Positions 58,210 through 64,000 of a DNA stretch of 64,000 bases are shown piece after piece (positions within the stretch are counted from its first letter, which is position 1; each line of letters starts with the position of its first letter). The DNA is from Rubidibacter lacunae KORDI 51-2 (GTDB lineage: Bacteria; Cyanobacteriota; Cyanobacteriia; Cyanobacteriales; Rubidibacteraceae), in the NCBI RefSeq assembly GCF_000473895.1, contig NZ_ASSJ01000070.1, positions 124,001 through 188,000 of the forward strand, written 5' to 3'. The notes beneath the pieces were generated by a model, which worked only from the letters and a program-made list of their open reading frames with translations, was not told the origin of the DNA and searched no databases. Both the position numbers and the translations under genes were made by a program.

Positions 58210-59367
58210 TCAAGTGAGTTTCTCCGCCAGTGAATACTCCGGAATGGTTGCAGCGCTGACGCCAAGATAGCGCTCGATTAGGGCGACGATGCGTTCCGCC
58301 GCCCGACCATCGCCAAATGGGTTGACCGCTGTCGCCATTGCCCGATAGGTCTCGGCATTGGCCAGTAGTTCGCTCGCTGCTGCAACCACGCTTGCCGTAT
58401 CGGTGCCCACGAGCCGTGCCGTACCGGCTGCAATTGCCTCAGGGCGCTCGGTTGTCTCGCGGAGTACCAGCACGGGTTTACCCAAACTCGGTGCTTCTTC
58501 TTGCAACCCACCCGAATCCGTGATCAGCAGCGAACAGCGCTGAATTGCGCCGACGAGCTGTGCGTAATCTAACGGCTCGGTAAGGAACGCGCGTGGATGG
58601 CGCTCCAGTGTCGCGCGGATCGGCTCCCGCACAATGGGGTTGCGATGCATCGGCAGCAACAACGCCGTATCGGGAAACTTGTTGAGAATCGTTTGGAAGC
58701 CGGACAGAATCGCTTGCAGCGGTTCGCCCCAATTTTCTCGGCGGTGAACGGTTGCCAGCAAGACGCGATAGTGCTCCCAGTCCAGCCCATCAATGTGGCA
58801 ACTTGGCTGCCGCATTGCGGTTGCTAACAAGGCATCGATTACCGTATTGCCCGTGAGGTGAACCGCCCCCGTCACGGCCGCCCGCTGCAAGTTTTCCACT
58901 GCAGCTGGAGTGGGTGCAAAGTGTAGCTGTGCGATCTGCGCGATCAACCGGCGGTTGGCTTCCTCAGGATAGGGGTTGAGCAAGTCATTCGAGCGCAAAC
59001 CAGCTTCCACGTGTCCGACCGGAATGTTCTGGTAAAACGCCGCAAGTGCTGCAGCAAATGCCGTCGTCGTGTCACCTTGTACCACCACCAAGCGCGGCGG
59101 TTTAGATGTTTGCCACAAGCGCTCCAGCCCCTGCAGGCTGCGGCAGGTGATTCCCGTGAGCGTCTGACGATCGCGCATGATTTCTAAGTCGCAATCAGCT
59201 TGCAACTCAAATAAATCCATCACCTGCGCGACCATTTCCTTATGCTGGCCGGTCAAAACCACTTGGGTATCTAGTACGGAGCTGCGGCGGCAACGCGCGA
59301 TCGCAGGTGCGAGTTTGATTGCTTCCGGGCGCGTACCGAGGACGATACAGATGGGAGCGGGAATCAT
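58210..59367 (-). CDS. wecB: UDP-N-acetylglucosamine 2-epimerase (non-hydrolysing)
   Basis: 385 aa. Motifs: ICIVLGTRPEAIKLAPAI, VVLTGQHKEMV, VVQGDTTTAFAAALAAF, GHVEAGLRSNDLLNPYPEEANRRLI (substrate-binding), VHRRENWGEPL and LLITDSGGLQEEAPSLGKPVLVLRETTERPEA, all diagnostic for WecB/MnaA. It converts UDP-GlcNAc to UDP-ManNAc, a precursor for cell-surface polysaccharide. The ATG at 59367 gives the usual length. Confidence 0.95.
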   Translation of the reverse strand: MIPAPICIVLGTRPEAIKLAPAIARCRRSSVLDTQVVLTGQHKEMVAQVMDLFELQADCDLEIMRDRQTLTGITCRSLQGLERLWQTSKPPRLVVVQGDTTTAFAAALAAFYQNIPVGHVEAGLRSNDLLNPYPEEANRRLIAQIAQLHFAPTPAAVENLQRAAVTGAVHLTGNTVIDALLATAMRQPSCHIDGLDWEHYRVLLATVHRRENWGEPLQAILSGFQTILNKFPDTALLLPMHRNPIVREPIRATLERHPRAFLTEPLDYAQLVGAIQRCSLLITDSGGLQEEAPSLGKPVLVLRETTERPEAIAAGTARLVGTDTASVVAAASELLANAETYRAMATAVNPFGDGRAAERIVALIERYLGVSAATIPEYSLAEKLT

Positions 59368-59738: not shown

Positions 59739-60122
59739 TTAGCCCGCAACGCGGTCGATGCTGCAGGTTAGCGGGCAGGCGGCAAACTTAACCACCTCCA
59801 ACTGACCGTCTTTTCCATGCAGCCAGTGCAACCAGCGCACATCGTGCGGGTGAATCCCTTTCAACGTTAGTACGGCAGCTCCAGCAAAAACAGCGAAAAT
59901 ACTACCTCCGATCAATCCACCTCCGACAACCAAAACTGCACTCGTCGGCAAAACAGATTGCAATGCTACTGCCAGGAGCATCCCGGCGGTCGAGGCAATT
60001 GCGACGAGGGGGAAACCAACTACGAGCAAGCAAATTGCGAGCGTAAAGCTCCACACCAAAAAGCTCTTTATCTGCATCAGTCCAGCCGTCCCTAATAGAC
60101 TCCGCTCCTGAGCTAACTGCAT
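59739..60122 (-). CDS. small membrane protein of unknown function
   Basis: 127 aa with two or three hydrophobic segments (FLVWSFTLAICLLVVGFPLVAIA; AVALQSVLPTSAVLVVGGGLIGGSIFAVFAG), then a polar end with GIHPHDVRWLHWLHGKDG and two Cys near the C-terminus (AACPLTC). The HPHDVRWLHWL motif appears in cyanobacterial conserved membrane proteins of unknown role. A strong terminator follows, so it is a monocistronic gene. Confidence 0.55.
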   Translation of the reverse strand: MQLAQERSLLGTAGLMQIKSFLVWSFTLAICLLVVGFPLVAIASTAGMLLAVALQSVLPTSAVLVVGGGLIGGSIFAVFAGAAVLTLKGIHPHDVRWLHWLHGKDGQLEVVKFAACPLTCSIDRVAG

Positions 60123-60829
60123 TGCCTTAACCTCCTAATAAAATCGGTCGCGCGACCCGACCCCGCCAGTTTATTAACGCTTGTACGTTGCTATAAGGTG
60201 CAACGCTAGTAGCCATGAGTATAGAAAATCCTTAGGCAATACATGAGGAAAAGGCAATGAAAGTTTACAGTGTAACCGGTTTGTTTACATTTAATTTGGG
60301 CTTTTGCCCATAGATGGGCGCGCGTCAATAGTTGGCGATCCTCCTCGATGGCAAGATGCTTGGGCTTCTACCTGGTTGCACTCAAGGGCCCGTTTGCGTC
60401 TTCACGCGCAAGGAAGCCACGGCGTGTGCTCAACAAAACTTCAAAACTTAAAATGCCATTCTCATAAAATTTCAGGTTACGGGTGCGAGCTCGGAATTTT
60501 TTACTGAGAGGAGCGATTGAAGCTAGTGCTAAAGGTCTCATTCTTGCCAAAAAAAAGCTGCTATAAAGTTCGCAACATTCGATTGACCCCCCCGGTTTGT
60601 CAAATCGGTCGCTCGGTTATTGCACATTAATGTTGGGCGCGATTGCATAGGCGTATCAGCCGTAACGTTCCACACAACAAGATGGCGATCGCGCTCATAG
60701 TTCGTGGGGGCGTGGGATCCGCTCTATATCTGCGGGCTAATATTGTTGGAGAGTTTGTGTCGGCCGACCGCTGGGAAGCCGACCGCCTTTGCGTTCGAAC
60801 AACCAGTCGCATTCCAGCAAGCAGAAACC
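60123..60829. other. 700-bp gap before the PilT-like gene
   Basis: No supported gene. The open frame of the PilT-like protein extends upstream to 60704 but the ATG at 60830 is preferred. A T-rich and homopolymer-rich stretch lies at 60440-60600. It should contain the promoter of the PilT-KaiB pair. Confidence 0.3.
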
Positions 60830-62257
60830 ATGGCCGACCAGCAGCAGCGCCGTCCGTCTACGCCTCCCCTCCCTCCGCGCGTCGCGTCGCGCATTCCGCC
60901 GGTTCCAGCGACGCAAATTCCCCCAACACCCAGGTCGACAACTGACAGGAATACCCCACTGCCGCCAGTGCCGGGTTCGAGCGGCGTCAAAAGCGAACTG
61001 ACTCAGCAAATCGCACCGCTCGACCCAAGGTCTGCGCAAACCCGGGTCGCAAACCTGCCGGTTTCTCCCGGTGCACCGCGACCGACAGTTCCACCCCAGC
61101 TATCCACACCATCGAGCGTCGCACCGCCCCCACTCGCGGCGGCTACTCCCGCCACAAGTGGTTCCAAGGGCGCGTCGTTCTACCCGTTGCCACTCGGTCA
61201 ACCGCGTTTGGCAGACATCATATATATGGCCTACGAGAACGGGTTCTCCGATATCCACATCAGCGTGACGGAAGCGCCTCGCTTGCGCAACCGCGGAGAG
61301 ATGGACTACAGCGACTACCCCGAGACCGATCGAGCTACTTTTATGAGCTGGATACACGAGATCCTCAGTGAGGCGGATGTTGAGCGTTTCCAGAAGACCC
61401 TCGAGTACGACGGTGCAGCCGACTATGACTTTGCACGCGTGCGGATCAATATCTTTATGACCATGCGGGGTCCGGCTATGGTACTGCGGTTGATCCCGCT
61501 CAAAATTCTGACTATCGACCAACTGCGCTTGCCGCAAGTTTTTCGGGATATTTGCCACGCTCACAAGGGATTGATCTTGATTACCGGTCCCACGGGATCT
61601 GGAAAATCGACCTCGATGGCTGCGATGGTGGACTACATCAACAGCGAGATGCCCAAACACATCATTACCATCGAAGACCCGATCGAATTCGTGCATCGCA
61701 GCCGCAAGGCTTTGATCCGACAGCGGGAAGTTGGCTTGCACACCCACGAGTTCGATCGCGCGCTTAAATCAGCACTGCGTGAAGACCCGGACGTGATTCT
61801 CATCGGCGAGATGCGCGATCGCGAAACGGTGAACACGGCGCTGAAAGCCGCTCAGACCGGTCACGTGGTGATGGGTACGCTACACACCAACAGCGCGATC
61901 AAGACCATCGAACGTATCCTCGGTCTATATAGTGCCGAGGAACAACCAGCCATGCGTGTCGCGCTTGCCGAGTCGATTATTGCGGTTATCGCTCAGGGTC
62001 TGTGCCGCACCACCGATGGCAAACGAGCCGCGTTCCACGACATCCTTGTCAACACGGACACGATCAAGGACTACATCCGCGACGGTAAATACGATGAGAT
62101 CTTGCCGCTTATTAAGGACGGCGAGTACGACGGCATGATCACGATGAATCAGTCGTTGTTCAATCTTTACCAAGAAGGGCGCATTACAGAGGAGGCGGCG
62201 CTCGAATGGTCGCCGACCCCGAACGAGATGGCGCAGATGTTGCGCGGTCGCGTCTGA
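60830..62257 (+). CDS. pilT: PilT-like twitching-motility ATPase with Pro-rich N-terminal extension
   Basis: 475 aa from the ATG at 60830. Residues ~1-120 are Pro/Ser/Ala-rich, unlike typical PilT. The core has DIIYMAYENGFSDIHISV, the Walker A LITGPTGSGKSTSMAAMVDY, the Asp box HIITIEDPIEFVH, the Walker B ALREDPDVILIGEMRDRETV and the His box TGHVVMGTLHTNSA. The C-terminal MITMNQSLFNLYQEGRITEEAAL is also typical. PilT retracts type IV pili. Which of the cyanobacterial pilT paralogues this is cannot be fixed. Its TGA overlaps the ATG of the next gene (TGATG). Confidence 0.9.
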   Translation: MADQQQRRPSTPPLPPRVASRIPPVPATQIPPTPRSTTDRNTPLPPVPGSSGVKSELTQQIAPLDPRSAQTRVANLPVSPGAPRPTVPPQLSTPSSVAPPPLAAATPATSGSKGASFYPLPLGQPRLADIIYMAYENGFSDIHISVTEAPRLRNRGEMDYSDYPETDRATFMSWIHEILSEADVERFQKTLEYDGAADYDFARVRINIFMTMRGPAMVLRLIPLKILTIDQLRLPQVFRDICHAHKGLILITGPTGSGKSTSMAAMVDYINSEMPKHIITIEDPIEFVHRSRKALIRQREVGLHTHEFDRALKSALREDPDVILIGEMRDRETVNTALKAAQTGHVVMGTLHTNSAIKTIERILGLYSAEEQPAMRVALAESIIAVIAQGLCRTTDGKRAAFHDILVNTDTIKDYIRDGKYDEILPLIKDGEYDGMITMNQSLFNLYQEGRITEEAALEWSPTPNEMAQMLRGRV

Positions 62258-63030
62258 TGGCAAGCGCATTGCATCCAGTGAGCGTTCCGGCAGCACGCAC
62301 ATCTAAGGACATTGCGCTGTTCACGCCAGCAGGTGACCTGGTGTACTGCTGCGATATTGAAGCGAGCGCGCGCTGGCATGCCGATCTGTGCGTTCAGTTG
62401 CAGGAACTGCTAGGCCTGCCAGAGCCGCCGCACTTTCTCGTTCCCAGCCACACGGCGACAATCGTGCGCTGGCTCGATCCGGAAACTCAGCAAGTGGTTA
62501 GTGCGGCCGAGCTGTATCCTCCAGGCTGGCAGCATCGTTCGTTGTTGTCAGCGGCGTTCGGCTTGGCTAATAATGACTGGCGCGTGCTGCCTTGGCAGGA
62601 GGAGTGTTGCGACCCACTATTGTTGCAGGCACACCGAGGTCGCTTTCCGCAGTTGTGGGATTGCCACGAAGCGATCGTGCAATGCACGCTCTCGGAAGCC
62701 TTGTTACCGACGGCAGCGGTATCTGTGTCCGAGAACCAACTAACAGGTGCGATCGCGTCGCCTACGGGGTATGTCCTGCGTCTGTTTGTCTCCGGGCGCA
62801 GCCCACTGGCCGAATCGATTTTGGCAACCTTGCACCAGTTGCTCGACCGCCGCTTGCAGCAGCCTTACACGCTGAAGGTCGTCGATATCAGCAAGCATCC
62901 CGAGCAAGCCGAACTGAATCAGGTATCGGCGACGCCCACGCTCGTGCGGGTTTGGCCGAAGCCACTTCGGCGGATTGTCGGCGGTTGGGATAATCTACAA
63001 CGCTTGCTCGACCTCGTCAGCGCAACGTAG
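62257..63030 (+). CDS. KaiB-domain protein, coupled to pilT
   Basis: 257 aa, ATG at 62257 overlapping the pilT stop. The first ~165 residues are a domain I do not recognise, starting DIALFTPAGDLVYCCDIEASARWHADLC. The C-terminal ~85 (residues ~172-254) has the KaiB thioredoxin-like pattern: YVLRLFVSGRSPLAESILATLHQLLDRRL, YTLKVVDISKHPEQAELNQVSATPTLVRV, PLRRIVGGWDNLQRLLDL. KaiB is the fold-switching clock protein; related domains occur in SasA. The order (unknown domain then KaiB) is opposite to SasA. Coupling to pilT suggests a shared function such as motility control. Confidence 0.8.
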   Translation: MASALHPVSVPAARTSKDIALFTPAGDLVYCCDIEASARWHADLCVQLQELLGLPEPPHFLVPSHTATIVRWLDPETQQVVSAAELYPPGWQHRSLLSAAFGLANNDWRVLPWQEECCDPLLLQAHRGRFPQLWDCHEAIVQCTLSEALLPTAAVSVSENQLTGAIASPTGYVLRLFVSGRSPLAESILATLHQLLDRRLQQPYTLKVVDISKHPEQAELNQVSATPTLVRVWPKPLRRIVGGWDNLQRLLDLVSAT

Positions 63031-63220: not shown

Positions 63221-64000
63221 ATGCATCTGGTAACCGGAGCAACGGGGCAAGTCGGGCGGCGAATCGTGCGGTTGATACGCGATCGCGAGGAACCCGTGCG
63301 AGCATTCGTGCGGTTGAGCGCGCGGTATGGCGAACTCGACCAACGCGGCGCGGAGATTTTTGTCGGGGAACTCGAGGACACCCGCGATATTCAACGGGCA
63401 TGCCGAGGCGTGCGCGTTATCCTCAGCACTCACGGCTCTACAGGCAATCCCCAGCGCCTCGATTACCGCGCCAACATTGAATTAATCGATGCAGCAAAAG
63501 ATAATGGTGTCGAACATTTCGTGTTTATTTCCGTGCTCGGGGCCGACCGCGGTTATGAAGACGCGCCTATTTTCAAGGCCAAGCGCGAGGTCGAAAAATA
63601 CCTGGCTGCGAGCGGGCTTAACTATACAATCTTGCGGCCCTCGGGTTTAGCGTCCGAACTGATTGCATCGGCAGAACGATGCCGCGATTCGGGCATTTAC
63701 GTCCTCGTGGGTGACCCAGGAAACCGTACCTCGATTGTCAGTACTGACGACCTGGCTGATATTGCCGTTGCATCCATGACCGCTGAGGGAGCGAAGAACC
63801 GCACGTTTTCAGTCGGAGGTCCGGACGTACTCAAACGCGAAGATATCCCGAGCGTTTACGGACGTATTCTCGATCGCGAACCGGTCGTTATTAACGTACC
63901 GCTTCCGGTCGTCGATTTCGTGCGAGCGGGGGTCGGCTTTTTCGACACCGACCTACAGTGCAACCTCGGTACGTTTAGAACGCTCCTCGCTAACGAGTTT
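63221..64000 (+). CDS. NmrA-like/atypical SDR NAD(P)-binding protein (3' truncated by window)
   Basis: At least 260 aa from the ATG at 63221, preceded by aggagaacgg; the frame is open at the window end. GATGQVGRRIVRLI (GxxGxxG nucleotide site), then VRAFVRLS, LIDAAKDNGVEHFVFISVLGADRG, APIFKAKREVEKYLAASGLNYTILRPSGLASELI and RTSIVSTDDLADIAVASM. These fit the atypical SDR group (NmrA/Ycf39-type). Such proteins bind NAD(P) and may be reductases, regulators or assembly factors. The C-terminus is outside the window. Confidence 0.85.
   Translation, partial: MHLVTGATGQVGRRIVRLIRDREEPVRAFVRLSARYGELDQRGAEIFVGELEDTRDIQRACRGVRVILSTHGSTGNPQRLDYRANIELIDAAKDNGVEHFVFISVLGADRGYEDAPIFKAKREVEKYLAASGLNYTILRPSGLASELIASAERCRDSGIYVLVGDPGNRTSIVSTDDLADIAVASMTAEGAKNRTFSVGGPDVLKREDIPSVYGRILDREPVVINVPLPVVDFVRAGVGFFDTDLQCNLGTFRTLLANEF

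Follow-up and report, generated by a model that had tools for sequence, protein, structure and literature searches.

Elongated KaiB proteins have been described as polypeptides of about 250 amino acids whose extension of about 150 amino acids is conserved only in cyanobacteria (PMC5520375), and the C-terminal KaiB domain of the form named KaiB-4 was found to be closest to KaiB1 (PMC5520375, PMC10808063). For a relative, KaiB-TV-4, the solved structure of the KaiB domain shows the fold-switched state (PDB entry 8ubh; PMC10808063). PilT2 is a second cyanobacterial PilT with a Pro-rich N-terminus as its described mark; negative phototaxis was reported for a pilT2 mutant and doubted by a review, and piliation and transformation were unchanged (PMC12288463). 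In S. elongatus, the clock was described as controlling pili and competence through rhythmic gene expression (PMC7125226). These articles, as far as consulted, ascribe no function to the extra domain of KaiB-4 and no settled role to PilT2.

Genes for both proteins adjoin in the window analysed here, a stretch of 64,000 nucleotides (C70:124001-188000) from the 4.15 Mb assembly of Rubidibacter lacunae KORDI 51-2 (Table 1; C, G and L numbers are our handles for contigs, genomes and loci). KaiB-4 itself and the Pro-rich PilT2 were already known. New are the adjacency of their genes, the strong conservation of the N-terminal domain of KaiB-4 and the survival of KaiB-4 after the loss of pilT2. The descriptions consulted of KaiB-TV-4 and KaiB-4, which belong to the same family as the window protein, give neither a neighbour gene nor a function, and no published mention of the linkage was found in a literature search that covered few subscription journals. 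The shared locus gives each protein a testable partner.

Table 1. Features of the pilT2/KaiB-4 locus, in window positions
Feature	Position	Strand	Basis
pilT2, PilT-family type IV pilus retraction ATPase, 475 aa	60830..62257	+	TIGR01420 464.9 bits vs cut-off 319.1
Pro-rich extension at the N-terminus of PilT2, ahead of the TIGR01420 match	60830..61207	+	translation; Pro-rich at about residues 1-115
GPTGSGKS in PilT2	61586..61609	+	read from sequence
TGATG, pilT2 stop/KaiB-4 start overlap	62255..62259	+	read from sequence
Elongated KaiB (KaiB-4), 257 aa	62257..63030	+	PF07689 and literature name (PMC5520375, PMC10808063)
N-terminal domain, about residues 16-143, no confident fold	62302..62685	+	first 171 residues found in 102/194 genomes
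Variable linker, about residues 144-170	62686..62766	+	22% mean pairwise identity vs 57% for flanking domains
C-terminal KaiB domain, about residues 171-257	62767..63027	+	PF07689 85.1 bits; best sequence and fold match 8ubh

The motor gene opens with the ATG at 60830 and closes with the TGA at 62255-62257; a GTG at 60704 also lies in its open frame, so that its start is not certain. The KaiB-4 gene starts at the ATG at 62257-62259, and another in-frame ATG (62206) falls within pilT2. The TIGR01420 match covers residues 127-466 of the motor, and its GPTGSGKS stretch is the Walker A motif. The only other PilT over the cut-off in this genome (497.4 bits) is found some 100 kb away, with a weaker PilB-like match next to it, and the window gene was therefore assigned as the second PilT, PilT2. 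It stands apart from this PilT and PilB-like pair and has a Pro-rich N-terminus, and no difference from the cyanobacterial PilT2 described in PMC12288463 was found. The extension that the initial annotation had considered unusual is thus an ordinary mark of PilT2, also seen by eye in all 20 PilT2 sampled from genomes without KaiB-4. A docking motif in this tail special to KaiB-4 genomes was looked for as well and discarded on reading, as GHRPAPPP-like words occurred in both groups.

The partner of pilT2 is elongated KaiB, KaiB-4, a protein already known though not yet characterised. The PF07689 match spans residues 175-250 (85.1 bits, cut-off 27), and the part preceding it had no match in Pfam or NCBIfam, which bears out the earlier reading of a KaiB fold behind an unrecognised N-terminal domain. 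The closest PDB sequence was KaiB-TV-4 (8ubh; phmmer 83.9 bits, E 1.3e-22), followed by eight cyanobacterial KaiB (59-65 bits), Legionella KaiB (33.6) and SasA (22.4). An N-terminal extension of about 150 amino acids of the cyanobacterial type and a C-terminal KaiB nearest KaiB1 were both found, and the best 80 of 389 relatives in an all-species scan carried cyanobacterial titles. The full-length model was weak (pLDDT 62); its best fold matches were 8ubh and fold-switched KaiB in complex with KaiC CI, and its matches at E <0.001 comprised KaiB-TV-4, fold-switched KaiB, SasA-KaiC entries, Legionella KaiB and thioredoxins, one of them designed.

CxxC is the active site of thioredoxins, and it was absent from the last 95 residues of all 102 members. 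Together with the PF07689 match over cut-off and the ranking of KaiB-TV-4 and fold-switched KaiB as best folds (pLDDT 62), this supports a KaiB-like C-terminal part over the alternative, raised at the outset, of an ordinary thioredoxin. Identity with the clock KaiB proper was rejected (TIGR02654, 61.3 bits against an equivalog cut-off of 145.3): the protein shares with KaiB1 the domain itself and the ATPTL and PxP stretch, but has an extra domain and, by eye, lacks the tail of short KaiB, its sequence stopping shortly past the final KaiB helix. It is not SasA either. Both fuse a KaiB-like domain to another domain, but SasA places it first and continues into a histidine kinase (10 of 10 checked), whereas in the window protein it comes last, at residues 175-250 of 257, and no kinase domain was found. 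This difference in domain order agrees with what the initial annotation had noted, and the Rubidibacter genome encodes SasA separately, as a protein with HisKA and HATPase_c domains. In a tree of KaiB domains, short KaiB and SasA each fell on one side of a branch and the elongated family did not; the columns being few and the branches long, no origin is claimed for it.

The N-terminal domain of about 130 amino acids was as conserved as the KaiB domain (57% mean pairwise identity each), with invariant residues including K17, F22-P24, W40-H41, C45, W108 and W134 among 29 sequences. Modelled alone, the domain of a Nostoc homologue (L116) reached a pLDDT of 87.6 and a pTM of 0.81. Foldseek searches of this model against PDB and viral models gave nothing at E <=0.001 (best E 0.09), and VIA-align gave no Z >=5 (best Z 4.6, rmsd 3.5 over 86 residues). 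A Pfam scan of the domain in 64 members yielded nothing credible (best E 0.044), and the best hit of a profile search of PDB sequences had an E of 0.026. ADF-H/gelsolin-type domains were the best matches of both Foldseek and VIA-align, below the level trusted for a fold, so that an ADF/gelsolin resemblance may at most serve as a weak lead.

The pairing of the two genes was widely conserved among cyanobacteria, as the initial annotation had proposed to check. The first 171 residues of KaiB-4 were searched in 194 cyanobacterial genomes that sample the class evenly, every matching region was inspected (30 loci and 73 regions), and a match was obtained in 102 genomes. Intact KaiB-4, with both domains in one frame, amounted to 102 copies in 101 genomes, and none of these copies had the N-terminal domain without KaiB. 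One genome (G007, locus L110) was omitted from the copy counts, its N-terminal domain being split over two frames, neither with a KaiB part. The PilT2 of that genome also had an internal stop, and a sequencing error may be involved.

A same-strand pilT lay directly upstream of 84 of the 102 copies (83 of 101 genomes), in 18 of the 23 GTDB families with KaiB-4. For the other 18 copies, a search with the Rubidibacter PilT2 located PilT2 elsewhere in the genome in 16 cases and did not find it in two (G143, G021). Among the best 80 of 389 relatives, taken as named loci, 66 had pilT within 1 kb upstream, one as a fragment only (L189) and two in two frames (L115, L149); of the remaining 14, six ended at a contig edge within 600 bases, one had pilT on the opposite strand (L144) and seven, including L151, had no pilT in reach. 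Nostoc punctiforme NIES-2108 (L128) is one of the strains in which the two genes adjoin. The adjacency is thus far beyond chance. On a quick tree of the KaiB-4 family it required nine changes, and repeated breaks of adjacency are likely, in a direction that such a tree does not give. As to a third conserved neighbour, only pilT2 stood out; 28 of 72 class-sample loci held 3.3 kb upstream, and most were too short to judge. The two-frame pilT2 of L115 and L149, both from Hormoscilla, stood beside an intact KaiB-4 and might reflect a frameshift or decay.

The stop/start overlap reported for Rubidibacter is real, at 62255-62259, but the coupling into a shared complex that had been read into it was not borne out. 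Start codons overlapping or touching the pilT stop were found in 2 of the 84 adjacent copies, Rubidibacter included, and the overlap was for that reason dropped as evidence for translational coupling. The distance from the PilT stop to the codon of the conserved Lys17 was at most 75 nt in 43 copies and 76 to 807 nt in 41 (more than 300 nt in 9). What is kept in the pair is adjacency, not overlap.

PilT2 was detected (E <1e-100, by eye) in 100 of 102 genomes with KaiB-4 and in 76 of 92 without it, so that PilT2 is the broader of the two and does not need KaiB-4. KaiC over the cut-off was missing from 12 of the 194 genomes; KaiB-4 was present in 1 of these 12 against 101 of the 182 with KaiC, counts made by eye and, like those for PilT2, confounded by kinship. 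The single exception (G123) had KaiB-4 adjoining PilT2 and a SasA-length KaiB frame, and short KaiB was not found in it. It also encodes a KaiC-like protein (G123:C121:1614-3032; 158.9 bits), below the circadian cut-off.

The tie to KaiC-bearing genomes bears on the possibility that KaiB-4 is concerned with neither clock nor pilus, its thioredoxin-like domain binding some other partner, for instance in a stress response, and its neighbourhood being historical. A precedent exists in Legionella KaiB, a KaiB relative outside the clock that is reported to act in stress response (PMC10808063), and the lack of a confident relative for the N-terminal domain would fit. Such an explanation appears quite improbable to us, given the KaiC tie and the fact that cyanobacterial KaiB scored well above Legionella KaiB and SasA.

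The KaiB surface was compared by columns in 183 elongated, 21 short KaiB and 21 SasA stretches. The rows were chosen by hand, with many Nostocales in the elongated set, and the 10 SasA rows checked, out of 21, all had kinase domains. By eye, short KaiB and SasA agreed in their commonest residue, each with a frequency of at least 75%, in 19 columns. The elongated family had that residue as its commonest in 18 of them: at 96-100% in 13 (L12, L42, D46, P51, A54, E55, A61, T62, P63, L65, P70, P72 and G78, T. elongatus numbering) and at 59-90% in L10, V14, V47, K67 and L80 (same numbering). The exception was L53, invariant in short KaiB and SasA (100%) and replaced by Q in 75% of the elongated family. 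The crystallographic contact with KaiC is made mainly by KaiB helix alpha2 (PMC6769508), which contains L53 as well as the kept P51, A54 and E55; in the alpha2 region, E56, K58 and L60 of short KaiB also differed in the elongated family. D91 aside, the side contacts between KaiB subunits that are named in PMC6769508 are partly kept (R23 in 60%, E or D at position 84 in 72%) or mostly not (K26 in 25%). If KaiB-4 binds KaiC, its binding is predicted to be perhaps less cooperative than that of KaiB, like that of SasA.

Diatom endosymbionts and their kin separated KaiB-4 from the motor. The endosymbiont of Rhopalodia gibberula (NZ_AP018341.1; genome G194, locus L151) had KaiB-4, short KaiB, KaiC (1000.9 bits) and a SasA-length KaiB frame, and no PilT-family match was obtained in its genome. 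Among 39 genomes, namely G194 and relatives, six were without PilT over the cut-off and had a fragment at most (G194, G195, G197, G198, G207 and G215). G194, G195 and G198 have an intact KaiB-4. In G197, which has lost both genes of the pair, it is broken, and in G207 and G215, genomes of 1.4-1.5 Mb, no KaiB-4 was detected. The last stretch of pilT2 was still recognisable upstream of KaiB-4 in G194, G195 and G197, with several stops. Some of these stops coincide in the alignment, suggesting a loss of pilT2 before these three genomes split; G198, with at most a trace of pilT2, falls outside this suggestion.

Since comparisons with free-living relatives were saturated or nearly so, dN/dS was calculated for pairs among G194, G195 and G198 only (Nei-Gojobori; dS 0.20-0.45). 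The values were 0.14, 0.19 and 0.23 for the whole of KaiB-4, with 0.07-0.16 for the KaiB domain and 0.21-0.29 for the rest. The G195 remnant has 4 stops in 73 codons; with stops that frequent, the odds that a frame of 243 codons not under selection contains none are about 1e-6. Purifying selection on KaiB-4 thus outlived PilT2. With KaiB-4 intact and selected where pilT2 is dead or gone, its role is not solely PilT2: it has one independent of the motor, most likely as a reader of KaiC like SasA. The endosymbionts thereby provide a natural experiment in which the two roles come apart.

The state of the clock in such organisms has been reported variously. The related endosymbiont of the diatom Epithemia clementina is stated to keep one copy of each kai gene (PMC11070190); daily expression change was dampened in the Rhopalodia endosymbiont (PMC11131595), whose clock may therefore be weak; and UCYN-A was reported to be without kaiA and kaiB (PMC6315102). 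KaiC was absent from the 200 kb around its guessed place in each of G195 and G197, a result that holds for those stretches.

These observations weigh differently on two narrower explanations. The PilT2 hexamer is a RecA-like ring, as KaiC is, and the KaiB domain could have been re-used on it as a regulator of the motor alone, the clock tie being lost. The linkage, the divergence within the KaiC-binding helix and the G123 pair, found without short KaiB or KaiC over the cut-off, would all suit such a regulator. It is nevertheless very improbable, because KaiB-4 stays intact and selected where no PilT-family ATPase remains and PilT2 is widespread in genomes without KaiB-4 (76 of 92).

Conversely, KaiB-4 could be a clock component only, binding KaiC to tune the oscillator or to compete with KaiB and SasA, its output having nothing to do with pili and its operon being shared with pilT2 for the timing of expression. 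Selection on KaiB-4 in G194, G195 and G198, with no PilT or a remnant, points that way, as do G143 and G021, which keep KaiB-4 with another PilT and without PilT2, and the titles of the fold matches, in which fold-switched KaiB relatives were solved on KaiC. We consider this unlikely all the same, as a linkage seen in 84 of 102 copies and 18 of 23 families would hardly be expected if the two had no function in common, and PilT2 occurs (by eye) in 100 of the 102 genomes with KaiB-4.

The linkage implies business shared with PilT2, the endosymbionts that PilT2 is not the whole of it, and the KaiB domain a relation to KaiC; from these three, the reading we favour is that KaiB-4 is a reader of the circadian clock with PilT2 as its usual but not its only client. 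We hold it tentatively, as nearly as probable as its negation. Observed at its base are the linkage, the domain make-up, the retention of most columns shared by KaiB and SasA, and the selection on KaiB-4 where pilT2 is dead. The C-terminal KaiB domain would stay in the thioredoxin-like, fold-switched state and would dock on the CI ring of KaiC, like the domain of SasA; the N-terminal domain would then act as effector, passing the time-of-day signal to clients. One client, in most free-living cyanobacteria with KaiB-4, would be the PilT2 encoded directly upstream, on which KaiB-4 may act, making the locus a direct post-translational output of the clock to the pilus; KaiB-4 has, besides, one or more clients or roles other than PilT2. 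If KaiB-4 does read KaiC and act on PilT2, a clock output would act directly on a motor.

Against the clock-reader reading stand G123, whose pair occurs without short KaiB or KaiC over the cut-off, the divergence in alpha2, PilT2 in 76 of 92 genomes without KaiB-4, the 16 of 102 copies with PilT2 elsewhere and the 2 without it, the phenotype of the pilT2 mutant and the dampened rhythm of the endosymbiont. The link between pilus and clock proposed from the window alone is partly supported, by adjacency (84 of 102 copies) and the KaiB-like C-terminus; against an exclusive pilus role speak the three genomes in which KaiB-4 is under selection without a pilus ATPase. The boldest version, in which a non-switching KaiB adaptor on KaiC hands time to the PilT2 ring without transcription and a second, pilus-free clock task outlived the motor in diatom endosymbionts, seems fairly unlikely to hold as a whole.

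Other genes flank the pair. Upstream on the minus strand, 59739-60122 encodes a protein of 127 amino acids, hydrophobic on reading and without a Pfam match, relatives of which occurred near KaiB-4 in 62 of 152 loci (2 in the class sample, where most loci were too short). A similar frame (L151:3861-4250, minus strand) was still open beside the dead pilT2 of the Rhopalodia endosymbiont. The minus-strand gene at 58210-59367, which we take to resemble UDP-GlcNAc 2-epimerase, had relatives farther upstream in 58 of 152 loci. The NmrA-like family was not prominent as a common neighbour among KaiB-4 loci; in Rubidibacter, an NmrA-like NAD(P)-binding protein is encoded directly downstream of KaiB-4 on the plus strand (63221-64000), cut by the end of the window.
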